From: a virus
IMG/VR virus record: IMGVR_UViG_3300005909_000078
Coordinates: 1-32,220 of that record
Length of the DNA: 32,220 nt
Direction: 5' to 3' (one strand)
The first letter of the stretch is position 1. Each line of letters begins with the position of its first letter. The notes beneath the pieces are model-generated. The model did not search any database and was not told the DNA's origin. It was given only the letters and a program-made list of their open reading frames with translations. The position numbers and the translations under genes are program-made. Positions 1,849 through 32,220 of this stretch are shown one piece after another.

Positions 1849-4470
1849 CTATTTAGATTCTAACGAACCTCAAACTCCTCATAACATAACTAATACTAAT
1901 GCAGACTGTAGGAATTGATTATATTCAATATCCGTAAGTCTTCAAGCCTTATGTTGTTTATCTAATTCAGAATAAACATTTTTAAATTTTTCTTTTCATT
2001 CAACTGTCTTTAAATCAGGTATTTCGTTTTTTGGATTACTAGCATATTCTTTTAATTTCTTCATAGTAATTTCTCAAAAATCTTTTTCTTTTCCTGAATT
2101 ATCAAAAACTCTAATACTAACCCCATCAGGAAACTTTCATAACTCCTCCAATATAGTTTCTCTAGCTCATTTATGGGCTTTAGAACCATAAGAAAAAGGT
2201 AAAACTCTCCTTTCTTTATTTTTTATAGTTCTACCTATAGCTCTTTTCATAGCTTCAATAAAATCTGTATGAGTATATGCTACAGTTATGTCTTCAAATC
2301 ATCTAGCATTAATATTATTGATTCTATTTATTCATTTACTAAGAGAAGTATCTATAATTATAGGATTATCATAGGATTCTTTCATAACTTTTTGTGTTCA
2401 ACTTTTTCCACTTCCTGCTCCACCTCATAAAACAACAACCTTTTTTCATTTATTTTCAGGCTTATTAAATATATAATCCTCATAATCTCTAGCTAAACTA
2501 GAAGAACTTTTTTGATTATCGCTAGCACTTACTCCATCTTTTTCTCAAAAATATCTTCTAAAATCATCTGTATTAATTACATTTCATAAATCCTTTTCGT
2601 GTTGTTTCATTATATTCGCTACTTCTTCCTTAGTTTTAGGTTTTATGTATTTAGCTATTTCTTCCTTTCATAATACATTAGTAGGAACATTTTTGAAAGC
2701 ATCTTTATTGTATATAACTGTATGAAAGTTTTCTCATCTTTCTATATTTACTCAGTCTATTCCTAGGTCGTCTACAAATTTCATAAATCCATCTACATCT
2801 CTCCTTTGAAAAACATCTCCCCATAAATTCATAATCTGCTCGTGTACTGTTTTTCCTCATACAAATGAATCTATAGCGTCGGATAATCATTTAGTGTAAT
2901 TTTCATCCCAGTTTTCGGCTATATCTTTTTTAGCTTGTTCATCAAAATTATTTACCGCTCTCTGTATTTGTCTTTTAGTTAGGAGTGTCGTATTTTCATC
3001 AACTATATTAGCTCCGACAGATTTCTCTAGCTTCATTATATCTTCTCAATACCCTAGAGCGTCAGATTTATTGGAAGTTGTATATATTCAAGGTCATTCC
3101 TGTGCTACTCTACCTATTTCTACTTCTTTTCATACTAATCAGCTCTTAAATTTAAATCAAGCGTCTAGATTCTGAAAGCTCTTAAAATCTCATCAATGAT
3201 ATACTGGTTTTTCATATTTAATTACCTTAGGTTCTAATTCTCATAAAGTTTCTTTTAAAGAATCTATATCATCAATAGTGTATGGAGTGTCATCAGCACT
3301 ATATATAGTATCGTTAGGGTATTCCTCTAGTTGTTCTATAATGTCTTTCGTATCTTCATGTTGATACTTATCGTTTCTACTTTTACTATCCATTTTTTTA
3401 CTACCCATTCCCTCAATTTTATCAACAAACCTTTTTCTATTTGAATCTAAATCTCTAATTTTTTTTAATAATTCTTGTTGTTTATCTTGTAATCATCCCC
3501 ATTTTTTTTCTCTATTTTTAAAATTTGTTTCAGGGTCTTCGTTTCTTTTTATAAAAGAATCAGCATTATCTTTGTTAAAATCTTTTAACTCTTGTTTTAA
3601 TCTTTTCTTTTCCATCTCCATTTCATACATTGTTGTAGGGTCTTCATCTTTATATGATAATTGCTCTCACTTCTTAACATCTTCAGTTTTACTTAAGGGC
3701 GTATTTTTTCTTTCTTCTTTAGTCATATCTTTTCTTGCTTCTACATTTCTACTTTCAACTTCTCATTTAAGACTATTATATAATTCATAGTCTGATTCTC
3801 TTGCAAATTTTATTTGATTTTCTATTGTTTCTTTAGATATATCAGAAAGTTTTTTAATGTTTTTATTTGATTTTAATATATTTTCAGCTTTTACTAAATC
3901 TTTATTTGTAGGATTAGGCTTATCTATTAAAAATTCCCATTCCCAAAAATCACGCCTATCTTTTATATCTGTCAATTTATCCCATTCTTTCCTATAATCC
4001 TTATTTAAATTACTTATTTTTTCTTTCATTATTTTAGTCATACTATTAGGACTTCATCAAGTAGAAAAAAACTCTTTTACCTGTATCAAATGCTGTATTT
4101 CGTGTAACAATGTTTTATTGAAATCATTTGTATTAGGGTTTATCTTTATGATAGGTAATCATTCTTTAGATATTATCAATTCTCAACCTCAAAACATTCT
4201 TTCATCTAATTGAATATCTACATCCCTCATTTCAGGGTAGTTCTCAAATAATTCATCGTGTTTTATGACTTTTCATAAAGGTAGATTATTTGTTCTTTGC
4301 CAATCTGCTATATTTTTCATCTTACTATCGTCTAGCTCAAACTTCCAGTCCCCATCCTGTTTAGTCCATCAACTTTCTTTCCATACTGCTTTTTCTACCC
4401 ATTCAGGAACTTTTCAGCCTTTCTCATATTTTTCATATTCTTTTTTAGCGTACTCTAGGGTATTATCATC
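1849..4470 (-). CDS. Giant polyvalent virion protein, C-terminal part (HExxH, ADP-ribosyltransferase and zeta-like kinase modules)
   Basis: 874 codons to TAG at 1849, in the frame that follows an A11 tract. No good start exists at its 5' end (first in-frame ATG at 4320), so it is most likely the continuation of the gene at 4463-7138. Modules in order: an HEIQH metallopeptidase-like motif (4090-4104) in NKTLLHEIQHLIQ; a long Lys/Glu-rich helical stretch; an ADP-ribosyltransferase-like domain from YHGG (about 3206) through GPGIYTTSNK (about 3080) to HTVIYN (about 2720); and a P-loop domain GGAGSGKSGT (about 2402-2430) followed by IIIDTSLSKG, resembling zeta-toxin kinases. This architecture matches the known phage polyvalent proteins, which are packaged in virions and delivered into the host. 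UGA encodes Gly in each motif. Whether each enzyme is active cannot be told from sequence. Confidence 0.8.
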
Positions 4471-7138
4471 TTTTTTTTTTTGCCTTAACTCAACCTATAG
4501 ACGCTTTCTTATTTCCTGAAGTGTTAAATACTTTTTTAGTTTCAAAAAAATCTTTAATCCCCATCTTTATTTTTTCCGCCTTACTTATACCTAGCCCACT
4601 ATCCCAAATCTCATTCAATAACTCGTCAGGAGTCATATCGTTAGGTCTTCACTCATTCATAGCCGTTATATACTGCTCTGCTTCATTTATAAAATATTCT
4701 TCACTTTTATTTCTAGTGTCGCCAGAACCCAAATCGTACGCTCAACTCTTTCTTCTATTTCTTATTCCCCTAAGATTACTAGCTTCTTTTAATAAGGAAG
4801 CAGGATAACCAGTACCTATAGAATCATATTCTTTCTTAGCCCCTTTCATAGCCTGCTCTCTGTAAATAGCTTCCTCAGGTGTAATGTCTCCAGTATCTAC
4901 GTCGCTAGAACCCGAATCATCCTTATTTATTTTACCCGATTTTTTAGCTTCTAGATATTCTGTATAAGTAGTTATTTCTCATAGCTCCTTACCTGAATCC
5001 AGTTCTTTTCATATAAATTTCTGATAATCCTGCATTTCTACCTCCTTATCTATTTTAGCTTTTTCTGATTTTCTAGCGTCTATTATAGCCTCTAAATCCT
5101 GAATAGTTTCGGCTTGTTCTATTTCCTTGTCTATAATTTTTCCATCATCTATAGCTTTATTTTTAGATTTTTTAAAATCATTTACTACTTCAACTTCTTC
5201 AAAGTTTTTAGCTATCTTATCTATTCCATCTTCTATAAATTGCTTAACCTTACCTATAGGAGTTCAGTTTTCTAGCTTCTTATTTAGTTTTTCAAACTGC
5301 TTTATCATTGTAGATAAGTTTTGCTGTAAGGTTATAGAGTTGTATGTTTTATTTCATACGTTACTCTTAACCAACATATTAACGAATCATCTTCAAGCTC
5401 AGAAAGTAACACTATCAACAATTCATCAAACTAGTCTTCATAATCTTTCTCATAATTTCCTTTTTCATACTCTTTTGATTAAATCAAAAGCTAAGTTTTC
5501 TAATCTTTCAGAGCTATCTTTTAATTTGTAAACATTGCTCATTTCTAAGTCTAATCCCTTAGCGATGTCATCAGGTAACTTACTTCTAGTGGTTTCTTTT
5601 ATTCAGCTTCTTATATTCTCATACATTTTAGCGTTTACGCTAGTTAAAGCGTCCCCTTTTTTATTAAAAGCTTTGCTTTTAAATTCTATTCAATAAATTC
5701 TAGAAAGCTTATTCATTTCCGATAAAGTAAGCCCATCTCAATTAAACTTATCCTTTATTTGTTTTATTTTATTCATACCATCAATATCAGCAGTTTTTCT
5801 ATAAACTTCCTCTAAATTACCTATAGCGGTTTCAACAAAATTTATCTTAACGCTACCTTTAGTAGTATGCGTAGATTCTTTATTATATAATATATCAGGG
5901 TTAAAGTTATCTGTTTTAGTTTCTAATATTTCATCTACTTTTTGTCATAAAATTTGGATTCTTTCGCTTGTTCTATTTGTCAAGTCTTCATAAGTTTCCA
6001 CTCAGTCTAAATCTGTGCTTTCAAGTCATTTTTTTAGCTTTTCAATGTCTTGTTTTTTTCCTTGTGTCGCTTCCGCTATAACATTATTTAATTTTTCTCT
6101 AACGGCTTTTCATCACATACTATTCCAAGCCTTAGCCCCAAATTTTATAACTCATTCTCCTGCGACTTCTCACGCTATTCATATTTCCCATTTAGGGACT
6201 TTATACCCAAGTATGTCTACATCTTCTCCCCAAATAGTGCTTCATTCTGATACTGCCTCAAATACTTCTTCTCACAATATTCACGATAACGCTATTCTTG
6301 CGGTTTTATATAATTTAGGAAAATTTGTAGCAATTTTCCTCATTCTTTCTATTTTAGTTATCTTGCTAATTTGTGCTCAGGGAATAAAAAAAGTAGCTAG
6401 CTCTTCTATCATTTCGCTTCATTTAGTTCTCCAGTCATCAGAATCAATTCAGAAAACTTCTTGTAATTCTGACTTCATTTCCTCCCCTCATTCCTTTACT
6501 TTCATAGAGATTTCATTTGCAAGCTCATTTGATTTAGAAGAATTAGCGAACTCCTCTCAATAAATAGCTTTATTTATTTGATATTGCGTATCCATCATAG
6601 CTTTAGCTAGCGGATTATCATTGAAAGTATAGTTTAAGATATTTCAACCAATAGCGGGAATATTTGCCGTCATCGCCCCTGCTGTATATTTTATATTTTC
6701 TTTCGCCTCAGTTCATAATTCTGATATAAATTCTGATACTACGTTTTTCTTCTTCTTTCAAAACATACTATTATGTATAAATTCATTTTTAGTTGCAAAT
6801 CTATCCATTATTAATTGTTGTTTTCCTCCTACGGGAGTAGCCTTTAATTGTTCCATAAATCTCTCACTCTCAAAATCATTAATATTCTCGGGTCTAACTT
6901 CAACATTATTTCAAACAACATTAGAAACCTGATAAGGTTCTCCAGTCTTTTGCTGTATTCAAGAATTATAGTCTTTACTTATAATTTCTTTAGCCTGAGG
7001 TTTATATTTATCTAATCCCTCAATTTTATAACCTCTTTTCGTAGCTTCATTCATAATTTCCTGATAGCTACTTCAAGGTTTTTTAGCTACCATTCATTGT
7101 AGTTGCTCCCTAGTTAGTACTTTTTCAAATTCTGCCAT
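4463..7138 (-). CDS. Giant polyvalent virion protein, N-terminal part (891 aa before frame change)
   Basis: ATG at 7138 opens an uninterrupted table-25 frame of 891 codons that ends in a TAA just past an 11-A tract. The N-terminal third has patches rich in Ala and Gly (residues 140-260) that could be membrane-active, as in ejection proteins. The middle is helical and charged. The last 130 residues (KKASIGGVK just before the tract) continue naturally into the sequence of the other frame (DDNTLEYAKKEYEKYEK, then a W-rich DGDWKFELDD stretch), as expected for a single polyvalent protein of about 1,760 residues. It is the last gene of the virion operon, 11 bases after the M23-like gene. Role inferred: internal virion protein carrying effector domains. 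Confidence 0.75.
4471..4481 (-). other. A11 slippery tract joining two halves of the giant gene
   Basis: The coding strand reads GGC, then eleven A, then GATGAT. The upstream frame ends at TAA seven bases past the tract. A net loss of one A, or gain of two, in the transcript (or a +1 ribosomal shift) opens the 874-codon downstream frame. A-tracts of this length are known sites of RNA polymerase slippage. A miscounted homopolymer in the assembly would look the same. Confidence 0.6.
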
Positions 7139-7149
7139 TGTTTAAATTA

Positions 7150-10104
7150 TTATTCAAATAAATCATCCATATCTGCGTTTTTTTTAGAATCTAACCAGTA
7201 TAGAGCGTTAGCGTATTCATTCATAGCTTCTTCTTCCGATACTTTTTCTCATTCATCTATACTATAATCGTCTTTAGCTCTAAACCAATTTCAATTCTTA
7301 TCTTTATATAAGTAGTTTCATATATGAGGGTCTGAATTTACTATCATACTTCCATCTTCATAAGATTTTATAGTAGGAGTTTCAGTATCAAATCATCATA
7401 AAGTATATGATGGATTTATTCATCTTTCTAAAGAGTTTTTTCTATAAAAATCTATTGTTTTATTAAGATTCTGTTTTCTATTTATTTCTACTCTTTTTAT
7501 AACATCTCTAAATTTTTGTGCGTCCTCATCCTTAAATAAATCCCCTTTCAGTTCTCAGCTTCATAATTTTGACATCCAAGTAGTCCAAGTAGAACCGAAT
7601 CATAGAGAATTAGCCGCCGCCGCGTACTCGCTTTCTCTTACTACTGAGGTAGGGTCTAATCACTTCATAAATAAGAATATAGTAGCCAAATCTCATGCTC
7701 CTCATAAAGTATCGTCTATAGTAGCTTCTAAATCTTTTGATAGGGCTTTTGTTGCGTTATATTTTACGTATTGTTCAGTAGCTTTAAATGACTTTCCTAA
7801 TCTGTCTGTTTCAGCTCTTTTTTCCTCAGGACTGCTATATCTTTGCATATAAGGTATATCTTTTTCTATTCTTTGTCTTTCTTGTTCTATTATTTTTATT
7901 TGTTCATCAGTATATTGTAAATTATCTAAATCAGCAACTTTTCTATTACCTTTCGCTATATCATCAGCAATTTGTGTTAGATTTTCAGGAATCGCTGGTA
8001 AATTATCAGTTCATATTGAGTTTACATATTCAGCTGTTTCTCTAGCGGTCATAAGTTTACCTGTTTTTCAATTTCTCATTGTCAAATCTAGATGAGTTCA
8101 CTTTCCGGCTGTCAATTCTTCGTCCGTAGGCTTTCTCCATACTCATCAAACTTTAGTAAGAACTTTTCAAGTATTTCCCATAGTTCAAACAGACTGTCAA
8201 GGGTATATATGTTGTCATACATACGCCGTAGTTTCATCTAAATGAGAAAAGGTCATAAGGTTACCATCCTTATCTTTAATTGTTGCCCAATTACCTCCCT
8301 TATCAGGATTATATCAAGTATTTACTACATCTCCCTCTATAGGAGCTGTTATAGGACTTCATTTAGTTCCTGATATATCTAATCAAGGCGACCATTCCGA
8401 ACTACCATATCTCAATACTCATCCTCAAACCGTATCAGTCCATTTTTTAGATAGCGATTCTATTTCTCCATCTATATTTTGTACACTCCGATTTCAAGTA
8501 ACTGGATTAAAAGAATACGCCTTACCCTCCTCAGAGTCAATATGTCATTGATATTTCGTGGTTTCTCCAGCCGTTAAAGTTTTTATATAAGCCTTATATT
8601 CAGGCTTATCTCTAACATTGTTTGAAATATTTGTAGTGATAGCTTCTCATAAACTAGCTCCACCGTCTACTAGCTTTGTTATATCTTCTTTTATCTGCTC
8701 TTTACTCCTTTGCATTGGTATACCCATTGCTTCCCATCTAGCCATCTCTTCATCTACGGCACTGTCTATAGCTTTCTTTCTTGTCGTCTTGTCTGAGCTA
8801 TTTATATCCCCGTATTGACTAGTGTATTGGTAGTCTATCTGAGATTTATAGGTTTCAAAGGCTCTTTTTTCTGCTTCTAACCCTCTTTCGTAGTCTTGCT
8901 CATTAGCATAAATTCAATATCAAAATTTTAAGTATCCAAATTGTTCATACCTATCGGCTCTATCCATTTCAGCTTGTTGCACCGATATATTATATTTCTG
9001 CCCCGCACTTGCTTGCATACTATTATAATTATCTAAAGATAATTGATAGTCTGTTTGGAGCTCATTATAGTCAGTAACCAAATCATTTTTCCTATTTTGT
9101 GCTATAGCTCTTACGTAACTGTCTGTAACATCAGAACCTTTAAGTTCTCTTTCTACATCTTTATCTATAGCGTCCATATCATCCTTTACTTTGTAGAAAT
9201 CCTCCTTTGCCTTATTCATTCTTTCTGTAGCTTCTTTCATTTCAGGAGTATTCATAACTATATCGTATTCAGCTTTTAAGTCTACCTTATCAGATTCAGG
9301 ATTTATAATGCCTGCGTCTGTCATATCTTTCATAATATCCTCAAACACATTTCAGTCTGTAGGGGTATCATCTACCGTTACTTCTCAATAAATTGCGTCC
9401 CCATTACTTCTTATTCTTTCTAAGTCTGTCTTATTTTTACTGTATAATAAATAACTATCATATAAATCAGGATTATAATTCTTTATATCGTCTAATTGTT
9501 CATTAGTTACTTTTTGTGTAGTCATACCACCATATAATCATTCAGCACTAGTATACTCTCTAAGATGAGAATATCTATTATTCTGTGCTGTTATATAGTC
9601 ATTTAGGTTTGAAAATCAAGCATTTTCTACTAATTTTCTCCTCAATGACGCTAATCCCTCAACCTGCTTTTCATCATCAAAATTAATTTTACCTCATCCA
9701 GCTTCCTGAACACTTCTCAATAATTCAGCCTCACTAAAATTACTTCACGCTCTAAGTTTTTCATCTATAACTCATTGTACGCTCCCAACTATTTCAGAAT
9801 TTCTTTTAGATATTCTTTCGGCTTCAAGCTTCTTTTCTTCCATAATCTTATCTTGTTCATCTCTAGCCTTATCTACAAGGTCTACAGTAGGTCAAACCTT
9901 TACCTTTGGAGGTTCTATAGTCTTTTTTTCTACTACTGGGGTATCAGCTACCTTACTTTGTTGTTGTGTAGGCACAACTTCTTGTTTTATTGGTGCTGTA
10001 TCCACAGTTTTTTTAGATTTCAATACTTGTCATTCTTGCCCTGTCAATTGTCAGTCTACTGGAGTAGCTGGAGTTACTCCCGCTTCTTCTGTTATTTCTA
10101 CCAT
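7150..10104 (-). CDS. 984-aa virion protein with degenerate M23 (LytM-type) peptidase domain
   Basis: ATG at 10104 to TAA at 7150-7152. The N-terminal 80 residues are Pro/Thr/Lys-rich and unstructured. Residues 90-500 are mostly charged helix. Residues about 560-690 form an M23 fold: GLDISGTKGSPITAPIEG, TFSHLDETT, VGQHIYPGQSVGTMGNTGKV, then GTHLDLTM. In active M23 enzymes the zinc site is HxxxD plus HxH. Here the first His is Ser (SPGLD) and HxH is HLD, so two of the three ligands are changed, although the Asp of HLD could still bind metal. The rest is helical, with an Ala-rich segment near residue 810. It lies between a tail-type gene and the giant polyvalent gene and is probably a virion-associated wall-binding or wall-degrading protein. 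Confidence 0.75.
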
Positions 10105-14389: not shown

Positions 14390-15355
14390 CTACTGAGGAG
14401 CAGGGTTAAAGTCAGATACATAGTTCACACTAGCCGATGTTTCTATAATCAATAGAGAATCGTTGTTAAGTATTACAGTTCAGAAAGCCACTTTTGAACC
14501 AACCTTAACTCTTTGAGCCAATGGGTCTGAATCACTAGAAACTCTAGGAGTTATGTAGTTCTTCAAACTTTGGAACTCTGATACTCAGAAAGAACCTGCA
14601 CCGAAGAAGAAGTTAGGATATACAGTAACTGTACTAGCTAACGGTCTTACAAACGGATTTTGCATTACTCTGATACCATTTAACGCTCCGATTTCTCCTT
14701 TGAAAATCTTCTCAGGAGTAACGTATTTGTTAGCCTCTAACCAACCTTTAGCATCTGTATCTATTCTCAAATCATAGATAACATTTTGACTAAATACACC
14801 TAAATAATATCCGTCAATTCTAGGACTTGCTTTAGCTGTCAAGAAAGTATCAGCCTTTACTAGGTCTAATCCAGTCAAAACATCTGTAGCGTCTATAGTA
14901 GCCCTGCTTGTAGCGTCCCCACCATAAAGAGTATTTATATTTCCTGATAATAGATTATCTTGAATTATAGTATCTATAATTCTACCCATATTCTTACCGA
15001 TTTCAGAACCAGCTCAAAGGATAAAATTGATAGGCTGTTTGTCTACTAACATATCTGCTAACGTTACGTACATCCCGTATTGTGTAGCTGTCATAGTAAT
15101 AGTACTAGCGTCAAAAGATATATTAGACGGAGTAACTCACTCAGTCAATATACTTTGTGCTGGAGTTTGTAGTAATCTACCAAATCTAGCCCACATCATA
15201 GTATTAGTTTTGTCAGACCACATAGGCTTTTCTCAAAGTCCGTAGAAGTACATAGACGGCTCAAAGTTTTGTAGAACCTTTTCGTTTAGTGTAGTTTGCA
15301 ATAGTGTACCACTTCCTCACGACTGGGCATTTGCCCTTGTAATTGTTTCACTCAT
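14390..15355 (-). CDS. Major capsid protein, N4-gp56-like, 321 aa
   Basis: ATG at 15355; the gene ends in two consecutive TAG stops (14390-14392 and 14387-14389). It forms the icosahedral shell. Features typical of the N4-gp56-type HK97-fold capsid group: an N-terminal segment leading to FARFGR-like MMWARFGRLL, TPAQSILTEGVTPS, then TATQYGMYVTLADM near residue 100, GSEIGKNMGRIIDTIIQDNL near 125, and a C-terminal EIGALNGIRVMQNPFV segment. Length is normal for the family. Neighbours are the Asp-rich scaffold upstream and a terminator downstream. By hand count only 6 of 27 Gly codons are UGA, far fewer than in other genes here, consistent with high expression. The first bases before ATG are AT-only with no Shine-Dalgarno. 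Confidence 0.85.
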
Positions 15356-17647: not shown

Positions 17648-19663
17648 TTAAGTTCCCACATCTTGAAGACTTACTCAACTATTTTCTTTAGCATTATTTT
17701 GTATAACTCCATTCCCCATCTGCTGTTGCATTTGATTTAATCATCATCCACTTCATCACATCGCTTGTTGTTGCATTGCCTGAGCCTGTTGTTTCTCTCT
17801 CTGTCAGGATAATATATAGGCTTGCGTTCTTTCCTCTATTGCATTTTCCTTAGCTTTGTTATCTTTTGCTGTCTGATATATAACTAAATACGTTTGATGG
17901 TCTTCGTTAATATCTGTTATCTTACTTAATCTTTCGTTATTGTCAAGTAAAGATAGATTTAATTTCGCCTTTAGTTCCTCGGCTGTAGGTGGAACGTAGG
18001 TTAGAATAGTTCTTCTGTCTATTCAACTATATTGTAAAGATTTTCTTTTCAACATCCTTTTACTCACTACTGGAGTTTCAGGGTCTTGCATTAATACAGG
18101 ATATAATGCCATAAATTCCATTTTCTGTTGTTCTTCCTGTTGCTCCTTTTCTGATTTACTCATTACTTCTATAAATGGGTCTGTATTTCCTATAAATTCA
18201 TCCCTCTTAAGAGTATCAGCCTTTATTCAGAATCCTGTATTTAATCTTATAAATTTCTTTTGTGATTTAGGTAAGAAAGCTACATAAGAATTATACCACA
18301 AAGTCCAAAATGCTTTTTCTCCCCAGTTATTTATCTTATGTCATAGAACTAAGTTCATATTAGCGTTATGTTGTCAAGTCGTAACCTCTCTTGCTGTCAT
18401 TCCCGTTCCTCTTTGTCATCTATTTAGGGCGTCAATTGCTGTACTTGATTCTATTTGTTGCTGTATCATATTTTGCATTAATCCCGTATCAGGATTTATT
18501 CTATCTTGCTGGTCTACGTTATGAACAACGTTTCATAAAGACGCTCCTTGTAAGTACTTAGTATTAACCCCTATTCGTTTAGTTCATACGGTAGGATTAG
18601 TTAATGCCGACCTATTTCTTATTGCCCTGCTATCATATAGCCTAAGACCTCCTAAAGCTTCCTTAGTAGCTTTTATGATATTCAAATTAAACAATTTACT
18701 TAATGCTCTTTGTTTATCTTCTACAGTATCTCCTACACATAATCCAAATGGATTTCCTCTCTGAGGACTAAGATAATTTAGAATTACTGGAAAAGTAACT
18801 AGTTCGGCGTGTTCTTCTTGTTTCTTAGTGAATGCCATACATTTTTCCATCTTAACAATATTTCATCATTCATTAGTAAGAACCACTAAACACTTAACAC
18901 CGTTAAATATAGTAAATTGCTCTACGGCGTCAAAGTTTGTTATACCGTCATCTATGTTTTTAGCTACTCATATTCCTGCACTCTCAGACTGAGCTTGCTT
19001 GTTAGCTTCTATTTCAGGATTACCGTCTTTACTAGAAATTTTATCCACATTGAAATAACCTTGTTCAGGATATAATCTATCTTTATCTACCGTAATTTCA
19101 AATCACATATATCTAAATTTACTAGAATCTAGCCATCCCTTAGGGTCAGGCAACCAACTCATAGGTTCTCTATCGTCAAATATAGGTTGATTATTTATTT
19201 CTTCCCATCCTATTAATTGCCTGATTCCTAGCCCGTAAAAAAGCCTATCCCATTGGATTATATAATTCATTATTGCAAGATTCATAGCTGTTTGGTCAAA
19301 TTCTGCCACGTTCTGCACATTCTCACTTCTTTCATCATAAACTATATAGTCAAATCTACTGGAAAAACTCACAGTCATTTCATCAGAATAATACAAAGCT
19401 ATCATTACCGCCATTGTTATATATAGACTATTTATATCTACCTTATCAGGCTTCTTCATCTGATTATTATATAGTTTCAGTCTTCTTCTAAAAATATCTC
19501 TTCTAACGTTTACTACAGCTATAGACTGCGACACTTCGTTAGATATTTGAGCCTTTACATAATCCTCTGTTACTCCTAATTCTTTTAGCAATTCCTTATA
19601 TTCTTTCTTATTTTCTCTCTCCATAATGTTATCCTGTTCGTACCTTTGATTATCTAATTCCAT
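17648..19663 (-). CDS. Portal protein, 671 aa
   Basis: ATG at 19663 to TAA at 17648. It forms the dodecameric ring at the vertex through which DNA is packaged and ejected. The evidence is position (after large terminase, before scaffold and capsid), length and composition: an N-terminal charged helix, a mixed alpha/beta body with NYIIQWDRLFYGLGIR and PMSWLPDPKGWLD segments, a long segment with SSTAIDALNRGQRGTGMTAREV typical of the portal wing/stem of short-tailed phages (residues 420-445), and a Gln/Met-rich C-terminus (QAMQQQAMGGSGGGLNQMQQ). The N-terminal start is supported by the AT-rich leader. A terminator separates it from the terminase genes, so it may be transcribed from its own weak promoter in 19664-19714; a TTGATT at 19710-19715 is the only candidate -35 seen. 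Confidence 0.75.
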
Positions 19664-19951: not shown

Positions 19952-21586
19952 TTATAATAAATCTGAATAGTCTTCTATATCTACTGGATTACCTTGAATA
20001 ATATTCTCTCAAAGCCAAGGGTCTTTATATGGAGAAGTAGAACCATCAGCCATAGAATCAATAGCACTTTCATACTCAGGCTCGTCTACTGGATTACTAT
20101 CTATATCATCTGTAGTTCTCCGTATCGCAAATGCTCCAAATCAGTCCGCCCCGTGGTCATTACCGTCCTTTGCAGGAGTATTGATATACATAGCGTGAGA
20201 TTTATCCCACTTCTTCCTGTAGTTTCTAAGACGTTTTAGCCCTACATCACACTTAACTCTATCAAAGTAACAATTAGGTAGAGTATTCTTTACTTCATCT
20301 ATCCTATCACTTATTGAACCGATGGGAACTACATATACATCATATCATAATTCTATCATAGTTTCTTTCCTTGTTTTTCCAGTTGATTGACTATGAACGT
20401 TAGCGTCGTGGGGTAGAATCATTGTTCCATAATTATTTTTGTACTCTCTCTTTTGTAATATATCTGTATGAACCTGAATCATGGAATATCCAACTCATTC
20501 CCAATACTCCAATACTCTAACCTCTAATCCAAATATTTGATAGAACCGAACCACCATATCATCTCATCCTCCAGCTCCTCATATATCCCAAGATGTTTCT
20601 ACTGGAAGTCTAGGGTCATAAGGTACTTTACAGATTCTTTTAGCTTCTGCTACTTCTATCATAGCTTCGCCGTAATAACTTCACAATATAGGATGTTCAA
20701 ACGCTTCTTTCAATACAGATGGATTCTCTTGTTTCATTTTATCTTTCAGTAGTTTACTTTGTAAATAGTACCGATTTCTTTGCTCCTTGTCTAGGAGGAT
20801 TCCGTAAGTCTTCTCTAACGATACAAAGTATTCCAACATCTTAGTAGGTATAGGAAACTCTCACGGCTCTCTATATCATTCCTCTTTCCGCCAAGGATAG
20901 AAGAATAGTTTAAATTCTAATCTAGATAATTTAGCTCCGCTATTCTGTAGGTCTAGAGCGTCCATAACAAAATCATAGAAATCTCAAAATTGTCATTCTG
21001 CTGTAGATTCTATAGTAACTATTCCATTCTTTGGAACTGCTGGAAGTGTTCAGGTTCTTAACTCCTCAGCTTTTTCAGGATGTTTAGCACATATTTTTCC
21101 GTGTTCTGATACGTGTAGTCTCTGCAATGTTGCCGACCTAAATCAAGTAGCCGATACTTCTATAGAACTACCTGTATTCTCAAATGAAAACATATTAGCG
21201 TTATTTCTATCTACTACATAATAAGCTTTCAGAAACTCAGGAAGATGTTTCCGAGCTACCTTTATTTTATCTCTAAATATTTTCTGTACAGCTGTTTTTC
21301 CTTGTGCTTGTACTCAAACATTTAGATTTCTGTTAAATAATGCGTCATCAAAGAAGTCTATCTGAATCGCCGTAGAAAATCAAATCTGTCTAGCTTTAGG
21401 TAATATATTTCTATACCACTTTCTTTTGAAGTAATCTAATTGTGATGGATTAGGAATAAATGGAATTATGTTACCGTCCTTATCCTTAATCTTATAAATC
21501 TTTCAGCTTGTAACTCTTCGCCACTTACAGGATAGTTTCTTCTTGATTTCTATTATCTCCTCCTCCGTTAGTTTTCTCTCTTCCAT
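19952..21586 (-). CDS. terL: Terminase large subunit, 544 aa
   Basis: ATG at 21586 to TAA at 19952. This is the packaging motor ATPase and genome-cutting nuclease. A Walker-A-like KARQIGFST is at about residues 64-72. The segment RLHVSEHGKICAKHPEKAEE and the ESTAEGQFGDFYD motif near residue 195 follow, as in the terminase-6 family. The RNase H-like nuclease begins at WDIGGAGGDDMVV (about residue 333), has HDANVHSQSTGKT near 394 and ends with NDHGADGFGAFAIRR near 480. Length is normal. The small subunit lies upstream across a 102-base gap with no gene. UGA encodes Gly at positions such as RQIG and ESTAEG. No Shine-Dalgarno sequence precedes the start. Confidence 0.9.
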
Positions 21587-21688
21587 AATATTACTATATG
21601 TCAAGACTATAAAATTGATTTCATTTTATTCCTACCGCTGGGATAGTTTTCACTAATACAGCTTTACAACTACTTGCTTGACATTGCT

Positions 21689-24846: not shown

Positions 24847-25752
24847 TTATTTTTGTTTTCTGAATATGTATCATTCGTCTATAGGTTTATTATGTAACAT
24901 TGACATACAATTTTTTACATTCATATTCCAATTCTCTTGACTAGTAGCGTAACAATATTCCCCGCTTCAACATAGTCTAGCACCAACTTTTTTTCTTCAT
25001 CCATTACTTAGATAACCTATACTCCATATATTTCCTAGATACTGATTATTCATAGTCCTATAGATAGCTTCAATTCACTTTTCTAAGTTATCATAAAACA
25101 CAACACTTCAACTATCTGTATTCCCTACATTACCTATATTATAAGCCGTTTTAAGTTGCTTTCCTAATCAACTGTCAGCCCGTGCTATACATATAGGTAA
25201 AATATAATCTATTTCATACTTTTCTCCTAACTCCATCCATAATTCTCTAGTTTCTCCTAAGTCATATTCCTGTAAAAATTCTAATACTCTATCTGATTTA
25301 TTGAATCAATATAGCTCTAGGTATTGCTTACTTTTTCCGTCCATATTAAAAGCCCACTCTAACTTCTTCATTTTGTCAGTATAATCTTTTTTAGTTCCAT
25401 TAGCTGTTATGTATTGCTTAGAATCTTTTTCTATCGTTTCAACTACTTTAGTTCCAATAAGAACCTCAATATCGTAGAGTTTTTCATCTATACTGAACTC
25501 CAGTTCTGTCTTTTTTAGTTCTAGCTCAAATATTTGTAGATTAACTCCTGATAATTGATATTGATAGTCTTTCATATCATCATAGGCTTTTTGAATCTCG
25601 CTATCTATTTCGTTAGAATCATCAGGAACTATAACATAAATAGTAATCGGCAATATAATCATTACCACAACATAGATACAGATAGCCATCACTACCCTAG
25701 GCTCACTAAGAGCTTTTTTCCAGTTCTTTTTAATAATTTCTAAGTTTTTCAT
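24847..25752 (-). CDS. Membrane-anchored lysozyme/transglycosylase-like cell-wall hydrolase, 301 aa
   Basis: ATG at 25752 to TAA at 24847-24849. Cuts or binds peptidoglycan. A cytoplasmic N-terminus of about 20 residues is followed by one transmembrane helix (residues about 20-41, YVVVMIILPITIYVIV), a coiled coil (50-110) and a C-terminal lysozyme-like domain: CIARADSGLGKQLKTAYNIG, NVGNTDSGSVVFYDNLEKG and GIEAIYRTMNNQYLGNIWSI, with two Cys near CGSGEYCYATSQENWNMNV. From memory, this domain layout is common in candidate-phyla-radiation genomes. An upstream in-frame ATG at 25794 would add 14 residues. Together with the one-helix protein that follows, it may serve lysis, or it may be acquired from the host. 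Confidence 0.7.
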
Positions 25753-25771
25753 TTTTATATATAATTTAATA

Positions 25772-26038
25772 TTAAAGCATTTTTTTAATTTCACTTCATC
25801 TTACTGTCTTTCTTGACCGTTTTTCCGCATATCAATTAAACTTTATTTTTCCACTATCTATTCTAGTCCTAACAGTTTCAGTGCCCACTCAAAGCAAGTA
25901 GGCAACCTCTATAGGTAAATAGTTTTTATTATCTTCTATGATTCACAAATCTAACTTATTCAACCACTCTTCAGGATTCTCCATATATTTCCTGCTTTTT
26001 AATATGTTTTTTCTTATATCTTCTTTTTTTAAAGTCAT
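25772..26038 (-). CDS. Helix-turn-helix DNA-binding protein, 88 aa
   Basis: ATG at 26038 to TAA at 25772-25774. Residues about 42-75 (YLPIEVAYLLGVGTETVRTR, then IDSGKIKFNGYAEKRSRKTV) form an excisionase/MerR-type helix-turn-helix: LPIxEVAxLLGV, a turn, then a recognition helix and a basic wing ending RGSEI. It is preceded by a 40-residue charged helix with WLNKLDL. The two UGA codons inside the motif encode Gly in LLGV and the wing turn. It probably regulates promoters of this element, possibly those carrying the palindrome near 1171 and 24607; that link is an inference. Confidence 0.65.
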
Positions 26039-27737: not shown

Positions 27738-28673
27738 TTATGTAATATTAATTAAAGACTTTTGTATTGTGCTATGCATAAGAGGGTATAAATCGTTTGT
27801 AAAATCTAACACTCTCGCTTCTTCTTCTTGACATTCCTGATTATAATTTCAAGTTTTTTCGCTTTCTACTATTTTATCCAATATATCAATTATTGTTTGT
27901 ATATCCTTTTCTAAGGTGTCAGTAGTATATAAGAATCATTGATAGGGATAAGGAGAATTATTTCCAACTGCGTCTATAATAACATCACAAGATTTTCAGT
28001 ACTTCATTTTTACCAGCAAGTAATAGAAAACCATTTGAAAACGGTATTGAAACGGGTCTGTCATAGTTTCTAAATTCCAATGGAATTGAGTAGTATTTTG
28101 ACTTATTAGCCTTGAAAATTCCGCTGTACTCTTATAATCTCTTATAAGATTTTTAGATAAACTAAGTCTATCTAGAGTTCATTTTAGTTTTAGCCCCTTA
28201 TATCATACCTCTATAACTTGCTGGTGTACATATTCTCATTTTATATCTGCTAATGGTTGTCTATGGAGTTCCTTTATCATTCAGGAAATTATAGCCCATT
28301 CTCACTTACTAATCTTTATTTTTTCTGACACATCTCATATAATAACCTCTCTTACATCATTTAAAGTAGGTAAATATTTCTTAATCTCTTTTTTGTCCAT
28401 TCATTTGTATTTATCTAAATTCTCTAGTTCGGGCATTACATCATCCCAAGTAGAACCAACATCTATCCAATACTTCTTGTAGAATCCATTGACCCCTAAC
28501 GATAAATAATCATCTAATGCGGTTCATAATTTAAAGGATTTTTTAGGATTTCATTCTAATTTTATCTCATCTAAGTATCTCAATTTGTATCATTCAGGGT
28601 TTTTATTATACTCCTTACATTTACTAGAGGTTACATATCCTCTATTTTTTTCAATATAGTCATCTTTAGCCAT
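27738..28673 (-). CDS. PD-(D/E)XK exonuclease (RecT partner), 311 aa
   Basis: ATG at 28673 to TAA at 27738-27740. Digests dsDNA ends to give single strands for annealing. The fold is shown by GTALDDYL near residue 50, then GYKGLKLKGTLDRL (the motif-II Asp), IRDYKSTAEFS with the (D/E)xK pair (about residues 178-188), and a QYRFQMVFYYLL helix as in RecB/YqaJ-type nucleases. It follows the RecT gene with only a 30-residue gene between, matching phage exonuclease-annealase pairs. By hand count 13 of 19 Gly codons are UGA, including the one in GTLD. Activity is likely but untested. Confidence 0.75.
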
Positions 28674-28774: not shown

Positions 28775-29584
28775 TTATTTTCCATACAATTCTTTATTTA
28801 ATGAATAAATTTTATCATACCATTCCTTAAATTCTATATCTCATTCTTTTCATACATACTTATTATATATCCAGTCTAACTCTTCTGATTCTCAATATTT
28901 TATAGATTCTGCCTTAAAATCATCCTCCCATCATTTATTTGGTAGCCTAACTTTTTCTAAGTCATATTGTTTATTGTCTTCTTCTTCAATATTGTTATAT
29001 ATATCTTTAGAGTGTTTTTTACAGGCTTTCTTCACAATTGTTTTTAAACACATTTCCTGAAACCAGTCCCTCCAAATAAAGTCAGTTTTAGCCACTTTTC
29101 TATGTTTGTCAATATCTTGTCTAGTAAGAGTCGTTAAGCTTTCTCCACGTTTATTCTTTATAACTGCATAAGCTCAAATTACTTTAGAATCATTCTGATT
29201 AAATGGGTCTAATGTATGAGAATAAATTACCTTTCAATTAACCTTAGAAAATTCTATAACATCTCATTCAAATACTAGATTAGAATCAAATAGAGTTTCA
29301 GGGTATGCTATAATCATCTTATTTTTATAAGACTGATACCCGTAACTTATACCCGTATTTTGTAAGGTTATATCAACCCCATCAAATACAAGACCCTCAC
29401 AATGAACTCTCTTAAATAAGGTAGCCATTTCGGGCTCTTTTTTCTTCTGTATCCACTCGTTTTTAGGTACTCCATCTTTTTTATGTAGATATAATCTCAT
29501 AATATAACTAGCGTATTTTTCCACATCTACCTTATTGTATTCTCCTAATAATTCTATGATTTTATTTTTCTCCATTTTCTCCAT
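28775..29584 (-). CDS. recT: RecT-family single-strand annealing protein, 269 aa
   Basis: ATG at 29584 (a second at 29575) to TAA at 28775-28777. It pairs complementary single strands during phage recombination and replication. RecT signature regions visible: GVDITLQNTGISYGYQSYKN near residue 70, IIAYPETLFDSNLVFEGD, VIGAYAVIKNKRGESLTT, and TDFIWRDWFQEMCLKTIVKKACK near residue 190, the WxxxxxxM..K helix typical of the family. Length is normal. It overlaps the small membrane-protein gene by 23 bases and is followed by the exonuclease. UGA codons encode Gly in GD and GAY. No other recombinase is seen in the window. Confidence 0.85.
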
Positions 29585-30363: not shown

Positions 30364-30738
30364 TTAAAGCTTCTCTAGTGATGTTTGAGATTCTAAAATG
30401 TTGTAATAACTCTTGACAAAATCTAGAAAACTACCGACTATCATCCATCTACCCCCCGCACCAACTATCATAACGGCTTGTATAAACTGGTTTTCACTTC
30501 TTTCGTCTTTCTGTTCCCACCATTTTAACACCTCTTTTTTCCCATCCTTTACTTCTATTCCTACATACATTCAATTTATACAAGCTGTTATATCGGGAGT
30601 TCCCTTAGTATGTAATTTTATAACTCATCTTCAAAACACTACCTTTCCAGCCTGATTTGATTCAGCGTGCCGTCATTTACTTCTCAAAAATTCTATAATC
30701 TCATTTTCTATAGCTTTTTCATTGTCTTTTTTTCACAT
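30364..30738 (-). CDS. VRR-NUC domain nuclease, 124 aa
   Basis: ATG at 30738 to TAA at 30364-30366. A Holliday-junction-resolvase-like nuclease of the PD-(D/E)XK superfamily. The core is GTPDITACINGMYVGIEVKD near residues 46-65, with the conserved Gly-x-Pro-Asp and E-V-K, then QFIQAVMIVGAGGRWMIVGS near 85, the usual C-terminal half. Phage VRR-NUC proteins are typically this short. It lies between the adenine methyltransferase and the recombination block, consistent with a DNA processing role. UGA encodes Gly at several points. Confidence 0.75.
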
Positions 30739-30766: not shown

Positions 30767-31534
30767 TTACTTTCCTAATCTTTCATTAATTATATCTATA
30801 TATCATAAACTATTTCCATCCTTATCTTCATCTAATTCTATTAATATACACTCTCTATCTAGGTTTTTACAAGCTACTCCTGTAGTTCAACTTCCTGCTG
30901 TAAAATCTAATACTAGTTCTCATTTATTTGTGTATGTTTTTATGAGATATTCAATCAAATCAACTGGCTTTTGGGTTGGGTGGAATCCCTTATCTCATTT
31001 ATAATTCAATACTGTTCTAGGATAGTTTTTATATTCTGTTAAAAACTCATCTTTATGTGATGGTCTTTTTCAAGTAATATTTCACCATTTATTTTTTGTA
31101 GTTTTATTTATTTTATTAATTTTTATAAGTCATTGAGGATAATATTTCATTCTCTTATCTCATAAGAGAATTTTATGTCCCATTCATCAATTAGAAAACA
31201 CAGATATATTCTCATTATTTTTAAGAGGCATATTTTTAGCGTGTTGGAATCAAGTAGTAGTATTTTTATTCCAAATCCAATCATATTTATACCTATTTAT
31301 ATTACTCATTCTAAGAGCAGAACTAAATGGTTCTGAACCAAATAATACTATTGCTCCATTTGGTTTGATTAATTTATTTAACCTTTCCCACATAGGTTCA
31401 AAGAGTATTACTGTATCCCATTTACAAGCAGTAGTTCAATAAGGAGGGTCTGTAATAATAGCATCTACTTTTATTCATTGTTCTATAAGTTTATCCATCT
31501 CTTCTAAGCATTCTCATTTTATTACTTCTATCAT
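30767..31534 (-). CDS. DNA adenine-N6 or cytosine-N4 methyltransferase, beta-class order, 255 aa
   Basis: ATG at 31534 to TAA at 30767-30769. Transfers methyl from S-adenosylmethionine to DNA bases. The catalytic motif IV is TDPPYG at about residue 28, and the SAM-binding motif DFTAGSGTTGVA lies near residue 213, so motif IV precedes motif I as in beta-class enzymes. Between them lie GHKILLGDKRMKYYPQG and the HPTQKPVDLIEYLI motif-X segment. UGA encodes Gly in DPPYG and GSGTTG, two of the best anchors for the recoding. No cognate restriction gene is beside it. Likely protects the phage DNA from host restriction or marks its packaging or replication sites. Confidence 0.85.
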
Positions 31535-31572
31535 AAATTATTTAATTAAATATTTAAAATTGTTGTTATTCT

Positions 31573-31992
31573 TTAAAGAATCCAGTCTATAGTCGGTTCT
31601 CATTTCTTTATCTTAGCTTCTACAATTCTTTTTCATATCTTATTTATTCTCTTATCAAGATAGTGATGACACTCCATAGTACAAACTAATCAAATATTAT
31701 TTTTTAGTAGTCTATATTCAGGATACAACCCTTTCGCTAGAATATGAGCGAATACATAAGAACTAGGCTCTAAGATAGGATGAAAACAAATACAACACTT
31801 ATGCTCCCTTTCCGCCCAAATCTCTGCAAACATCACTTTTTCGCTTCATCCTGACGCTATTCTTTTGCTCTTTTTTCTTCCTATAGCTTTAGGAGTTTTA
31901 GTTTTCTTTTTAATAAATTTTTTTTTATCTATAACCCATTTATTTCTCTCAGGTTTTTTAGAGTTTATTCATTTAGCTGGATTCCGTTTCAT
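31573..31992 (-). CDS. HNH-type zinc-binding endonuclease, 139 aa
   Basis: ATG at 31992 to TAA at 31573-31575. The N-terminal 55 residues are strongly basic (KKKFIKKKTKTPKAIGRKKS). The core has CCIC near residue 67, then FAHILAKGLYPEYRL (the first His) and NNIGLVCTMECHHYLDKR near residue 105 (the second Cys pair, then HH). This HxxxxK...N...C..CHH layout is that of HNH nucleases such as phage NinG-like proteins. It is one-base coupled with the cytosine methyltransferase upstream (TAATG), suggesting a joint modification or restriction role. A nicking or resolvase function is equally possible. Confidence 0.65.
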
Positions 31993-32220
31993 TATTTTAA
32001 TTTATTAATAAATAAAGATTTAAATATAGCTTCAACTACTGGTATACTCACTGCATTTCACATTTGTTTATATGCTTGTGAGTTTGAAACATAATCAGTC
32101 GACCAATTATCTGGAAATCATTGTAATCTTGCATATTCAGTTGGTGTTAGTTTTCTTATTTTATGTTTTCACTCTATAACTTGATATCATTGTTTATTAG
32201 TAAATCAAGCATAACATCAT
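31992..32220 (-). CDS. C5-cytosine DNA methyltransferase, C-terminal fragment (5' end beyond window)
   Basis: The visible 75 residues hold the two C-terminal motifs of the family: RKLTPTEYARLQGFPDNW (motif IX region) and SNSQAYKQMGNAVSIPVVEA (motif X). UGA encodes the invariant Gly in LQGFP and in MGNAV, which is strong evidence that UGA is Gly and not Trp. TAA at 31992-31994 overlaps the ATG of the HNH gene. The catalytic PC motif and the recognition domain are outside the window. Confidence 0.8.

Follow-up and report, generated by a model that had tools for sequence, protein, structure and literature searches.

The window analyzed here, by which we mean the whole stretch of 32,220 nucleotides in the IMG/VR record IMGVR_UViG_3300005909_000078, is classed as linear and has genes cut at both ends, and hence represents a genome fragment. 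With UGA open and read as glycine, it holds approximately 33 genes at a coding density of 92 per cent, and almost all of these lie on the minus strand; under the standard code, the genes are shattered and only 15 open reading frames of at least 100 amino acids are found. Genes of DNA metabolism (two methyltransferases, an HNH protein, a VRR-type endonuclease, RecT, and a PD-(D/E)XK exonuclease) are followed by genes of unknown function, then by the large terminase (TerL), portal, and HK97-type capsid genes, and lastly by three very large genes (Table 1). With TerL, portal, and HK97-type capsid proteins all present, the window comes from a tailed phage of the Caudoviricetes. From the layout, we read the three very large genes (984, 891, and 823 amino acids) as encoding virion proteins that are internal or ejected. 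The polyvalent-type protein of 823 amino acids, which is probably carried in the virion, contains a zeta-toxin-like P-loop kinase domain.

Table 1. Features of the window, from high to low coordinates, with TGA, CGG, and CGA counts referring to in-frame codons.
Feature	Coordinates	Strand	Evidence and remarks
C-terminal part of C5-cytosine methyltransferase, truncated at contig end	31992..32219	-	PF00145 7e-18; 6 TGA, including LQGFP and GNAV glycines
HNH/endonuclease VII-like protein	31573..31992	-	phrog_2914 and phrog_5956, weak; 5 TGA, 1 CGG
N6/N4 adenine DNA methyltransferase, 255 aa	30767..31534	-	PF01555 1.9e-28; phrog_67 2e-64; 14 TGA, on glycine columns with TGA masked
Endonuclease, VRR-NUC/Holliday-junction resolvase-like	30364..30738	-	phrog_93; 5 TGA, 1 CGG
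RecT-like single-strand annealing protein	28775..29584	-	PF03837 3e-13; phrog_148
PD-(D/E)XK exonuclease	27738..28673	-	PF12684 5e-14
N-terminal membrane segment and lysozyme/SLT-like C-terminal half (by eye)	24847..25794	-	sequence only, without family match; 7 TGA, 1 CGG
Large terminase subunit (TerL)	19952..21604	-	phrog_2; 36-38% identity to phage TerLs; 16 TGA, 5 CGG, 1 CGA
Portal protein	17648..19663	-	phrog_332, weak; follows TerL; homologous in L090, G360, G363, G364; 17 TGA, 1 CGA
HK97-type major capsid protein	14390..15355	-	phrog_1357 7e-45; PF25209; 6 TGA
Head-completion/adaptor-like gene, conserved in phage group	12878..13795	-	homologs in L090, G360, G363, G364; no PHROG match
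Virion protein of 984 aa, M23 peptidase domain	7150..10104	-	PF01551 2e-14; homolog in G360; 41 TGA
891-aa probable internal/ejected virion protein	4463..7138	-	size and place; Phage_T7_Capsid match sub-threshold only; 42 TGA
Polyvalent-type protein of 823 aa, zeta-toxin-like P-loop domain	1849..4320	-	PF06414 5e-7; partial homolog in G361; 37 TGA

Over all genes, approximately 353–360 in-frame TGA codons account for 49 per cent of glycine codons, which makes UGA the commonest glycine codon of the window (360 of 731), and in-frame TAA and TAG do not occur. Genes end in TAA (25 genes) or TAG (8 genes), never in TGA. Shifted frames contain 733–861 TAA and TAG codons each, against none in frame 1; for the other two frames the counts are 861 and 858, with 196 and 471 TGA codons. 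In every gene class, UGA makes up 35–59 per cent of glycine codons, and it is as dense in the recombination and methylation genes (59 per cent) as in the virion genes. We aligned the proteins blindly, with TGA masked as X, to standard-code phage relatives (12 for TerL, 10 for the methyltransferase, and 4 for the capsid protein), and glycine accounts for 151 of the 295 residues aligned at TGA positions. Among structure-solved and phage homologs of the methyltransferases, glycine stands at the masked codon of DPPY-TGA in 10 of 10 and of GS-TGA-TTG in 9 of 10, and also at those of LQ-TGA-FP and M-TGA-NAV. A column score that recovers 43 of 46 standard codons assigns glycine +48.0 bits over 29 UGA columns, compared with −17 bits for the next residue and −78 bits for tryptophan. 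These data strongly support the prediction that UGA decodes glycine in the window phage.

A preliminary description of this DNA had likewise read UGA as glycine, had placed it in frame in most genes and on near-invariant glycines of two methyltransferases (DPPYG, GSGTTG, LQGFP, and MGNAV), and had named TAA and TAG as the gene ends, all of which our counts and alignments bear out; the tabulation of residues at UGA columns that it proposed returned glycine and not tryptophan. The region from 30767 to 32220, on which it focused, indeed resolves into three minus-strand genes under UGA = glycine, with 14, 5, and 6 TGA codons. The one-base coupling of gene ends to the next start exists, but ‘often’ was an overstatement, as an overlap of exactly one base is found in three gene pairs (at 586, 12878, and 31992).

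CGA and CGG have been predicted to encode tryptophan in Absconditabacteria, and CGG to do so in some Gracilibacteria (Shulgina and Eddy 2021, PMC8629427), and following this prediction we masked CGG and CGA (jointly CGR) as well. The codons are scarce in the window (16 CGG and 7 CGA). At CGG, the column score is +14.9 bits for tryptophan and −11.9 bits for arginine; at CGA, the corresponding values are +5.9 and −3.1 bits. Compared to the 12 TerL relatives, three CGG and one CGA of the TerL gene fall on columns that are mostly tryptophan, one CGG on a tyrosine column, and one CGG on a variable column; all four well-conserved CGR sites are tryptophan in the relatives. Put differently, four of the six CGR codons coincide with the 9 tryptophan-consensus columns among 500 (hypergeometric P-value = 7e-7). 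True arginine columns of TerL are mostly encoded by AGA or AGG. Translating CGR as tryptophan raises the PHROG HMM scores of TerL by 2 to 16 bits (including gains of 9.4 and 15.6 bits), and with a single CGG read as tryptophan instead of arginine, the match of the VRR-NUC gene to phrog_93 rises from 27.8 to 32.2 bits (+4.4 bits). A reading of CGG as tryptophan in the window phage is thus well supported by the alignments. For CGA, the portal column has mixed residues, and the TerL column at codon 29 is tryptophan in 9 of 12 relatives and TGG in the related phage sequences L090, G359, and G360. This one strongly conserved site supports the prediction that CGA is also tryptophan, which draws on a single strong column because the window has only seven CGA codons.

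Because CGG and CGA sit on tryptophan columns, the code is not simply NCBI table 25, which the preliminary description had named: UGA is glycine and UAA and UAG are stops, as in that table, but its arginine at CGG and CGA, which had been overlooked, is not what we find in the window. All three assignments of NCBI table 37, which we take to be the code of Absconditabacteria (UGA = glycine and CGA/CGG = tryptophan), are seen, although CGA less strongly than CGG, given its few codons. The window therefore appears to use UGA as glycine and CGG and CGA as tryptophan, the Absconditabacteria code of Shulgina and Eddy (2021).

To place this code among bacteria, we collected genomes with UGA = glycine by scanning DNA for the GHVDHGKT motif spelled with TGA as glycine, which led to a class of 353 genomes, and aligned ValRS sequences blindly to 28 standard-code relatives. 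CGA or CGG stands at conserved tryptophan columns in every one of the 25 members tested from a single GTDB family, that of the MAG G041. In five UGA = glycine genomes outside this family, CGR is mostly not at tryptophan, the exception being one CGG in G097; in another of the five, G068, CGA is at arginine. The combination of UGA = glycine and CGG/CGA = tryptophan is seen also in IleRS of G041, G044, and G045. The last of these, a member of the family and a candidate host relative, has tRNA(UCG) and tRNA(CCG) with A1:U72 and G73 and, by our own reading, no A20, which are the tryptophan identity marks used by Shulgina and Eddy (PMC8629427). In three ValRS genes, CGR outnumbers TGG as the tryptophan codon by 18 to 1 (L274 of G034), 17 to 3 (L267 of G035), and 19 to 1 (L275 of G037), and this near-replacement of TGG is a later stage of reassignment than that in the literature. 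Here, ‘Absconditabacteria’ denotes the CGR = tryptophan clade of Shulgina and Eddy (PMC8629427), with the phylum name inferred from the code; several MAGs of the family bear the NCBI label ‘Gracilibacteria’.

The host of the window phage is deduced from the code alone, because neither a CRISPR spacer nor a phage tRNA was found. The spacer search that the preliminary description had suggested gave no convincing match in the 353 genomes: DNA searches of these and of 49 genomes of the family returned only low-GC noise, which reaches E-values of 1e-6 and below and hides short matches. A 29-base match of 97 per cent in G026 was rejected as a spacer, as it lies outside any repeat array. Searches for an integration site or a co-binned host of the window phage found none. 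Neither tRNA genes (ARAGORN and Rfam) nor a release factor were found in the window, which is an incomplete fragment. The code nevertheless narrows the earlier choice of a host in either Gracilibacteria or Absconditabacteria, since both CGR codons as tryptophan are reported for the latter and CGG alone for some of the former (PMC8629427).

Within the 353-genome class, the best TerL match is on L090, an 8.4-kb contig binned in G041 (G041:C7), with 43–44 per cent identity, 15 in-frame TGA codons, and the same TerL-portal-capsid order as the window. At the four TerL sites where the window has CGR on tryptophan columns, this UGA = glycine sister has TGG at three and tyrosine (TAC) at one, and the CGA codons that it does have are on arginine/lysine-type columns. 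The MAG in which this CGA = arginine phage contig is binned reads CGA as tryptophan in its own ValRS and IleRS (L277 and L151); either L090 is misbinned, or phage and host differ in the meaning of a sense codon. Another syntenic sister, G364, shares with the window the methyltransferase (54 per cent), TerL, portal, and capsid genes, and its CGA and CGG are mainly on arginine/lysine columns. Phage G360 shares the methyltransferase, portal, TerL, and M23 protein genes, and its CGA codons fall on tryptophan columns of the portal protein. Because CGA is at arginine/lysine in G364 and L090 and at tryptophan in the window and G360, a single phage group appears to have members of both codes. We give roughly even odds to the proposal that these related phages infect hosts on both sides of the sense-codon change, either following the change of their hosts or jumping between hosts.

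Prophage-like pairs of methyltransferase and TerL genes occur in CGR = tryptophan chromosomes of G064 (L082, on a 1.18-Mb contig), G041:C37 (L087), and G010 (L080), with TerLs that are 39–41 per cent identical to that of G360 and approximately 30 per cent to that of the window. In a TerL tree, which included two short wrong-frame open reading frames (L076 and L077), the place of the window is unsettled, with L090 and G359 nearest. A scan of IMG/VR for the DPPY-TGA-T motif returned 10 contigs, seven of which, G360 and G364 among them, are UGA = glycine-like; those reading UGA as glycine include L286, L288, L290, L292, L293, and L295. The UGA = glycine contigs G360:C1 and G363:C1 carry a single ordinary tRNA gene each, for tyrosine (L302, 1230-1314) and glutamine (L310, 8635-8708), neither of which decodes UGA. 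Among viral contigs, the TerL search found five relatives, all with the standard code, and searches with the major capsid, portal, M23, and RecT proteins gave one distant capsid protein or nothing. A search with a TGA-bearing TerL motif had no match, and positions 1–24000 of the window have no nucleotide relatives among phage records.

We consider it likely, with a probability of approximately 0.8, that the window phage shares the code of its Absconditabacteria-type (SR1) host. It would be a tailed phage whose whole genome uses UGA for glycine, CGG and CGA for tryptophan, and UAA and UAG as stops, and its translation would depend on a host tRNA-Gly(UCA) and on tryptophan-charged tRNA(UCG) and tRNA(CCG). 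If a cell with the standard code were to translate it, synthesis of most of its proteins would end at the first UGA, and four conserved tryptophan sites of its terminase would be arginine.

A Gracilibacteria host that reads CGG, but not CGA, as tryptophan would agree with the report of such bacteria (PMC8629427), with the CGG at a tryptophan column in G097 outside the CGR = tryptophan family, and with the excess of CGG over CGA in the window; we regard it as unlikely in view of the CGA at TerL codon 29. That UGA is glycine in both host groups, and that the syntenic sisters L090 and G364 point to table 25 members within the lineage, would suit a phage that uses plain table 25, CGG and CGA still being arginine, in a Gracilibacteria (BD1-5) host, but this is very improbable for the window itself, where arginine scores negatively at both codons and HMM scores fall when CGR is translated as arginine. 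Still less probable is recoding imposed by the phage on a standard-code host through a suppressor tRNA that times late genes. Phages of codes 4 and 15 are known to recode in this way, as discussed by Liu et al. (2023, PMC10746230), but here a sense-codon change would have to be imposed too. Because the fragment yielded no tRNA or release factor and UGA is frequent in all gene classes, recombination and methylation genes included, the phage looks adapted to a cell already recoded rather than like one imposing late recoding. Table 4, in which UGA is tryptophan and which Mycoplasma phages and some phages of the gut use, is assigned to many Patescibacteria viruses by gene callers such as geNomad (PMC12807717), but is refuted here by the column scores and by code-4 translations, which score lower against PHROG HMMs for almost all of the proteins and families compared.

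In the Absconditabacteria code as described for bacteria (PMC8629427), all three reassignments and the restriction of stops to UAA and UAG are those of the window. UGA = glycine phages have already been published. Approximately 44 predicted Absconditabacteria phages with code 25 were listed by Liu et al. (2023, PMC10746230); like the window, these are tailed with dense in-frame UGA as glycine, and most phages predicted for Absconditabacteria belong to this type. Together with the seven code-25-like IMG/VR contigs found here, they make the earlier remark that phages of this code are few only partly true. Only codes 11 and 25 were compared in that study, its text does not mention CGG or CGA, and its hosts were assigned by spacers, whereas ours is deduced from the code. 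RSA-ATP1, a 39-kb tailed phage of Absconditicoccaceae with lambda Exo/Bet homologs (mBio 2026, PMC13059738), resembles the window in its UGA = glycine and its recombination genes. It was called with code 25, without mention of CGG or tryptophan, and differs in having four tRNAs, including a UGA-decoding tRNA-Gly(UCA), of which none were found in our incomplete fragment. A sense-codon precedent exists in two assemblies of AGG = methionine phages of recoded Bacilli (PMC8629427), which, like the window, are adapted to a host sense-codon reassignment without a tRNA of their own for it, but in which codon and amino acid are different and the host is unrelated. No phage with CGG or CGA as tryptophan was found in the papers searched (most subscription journals lay outside the search), and CGR as tryptophan in a phage is therefore an unreported feature within those papers.

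Reassigned sense codons were predicted for bacteria in 2021, and their phage counterparts are few. A phage reading CGR as tryptophan would be an independent line of genomic evidence that the Absconditabacteria code exists, and its codons would give a signal of the host in cases where spacers fail. When such viruses are called with code 4, 11, or 25, wrong proteins result; in VIRE, geNomad labels 7.5 per cent of Patescibacteria viruses as code 4 (PMC12807717), and these are possibly of the same kind and miscalled. With phages from either side of the change, one could test how viruses follow or cross a code change and whether recoding shields the host from them. If our reading is true, a phage group with two codes, whose hosts’ proteomes disagree on arginine versus tryptophan, would record how a sense codon changes its meaning.
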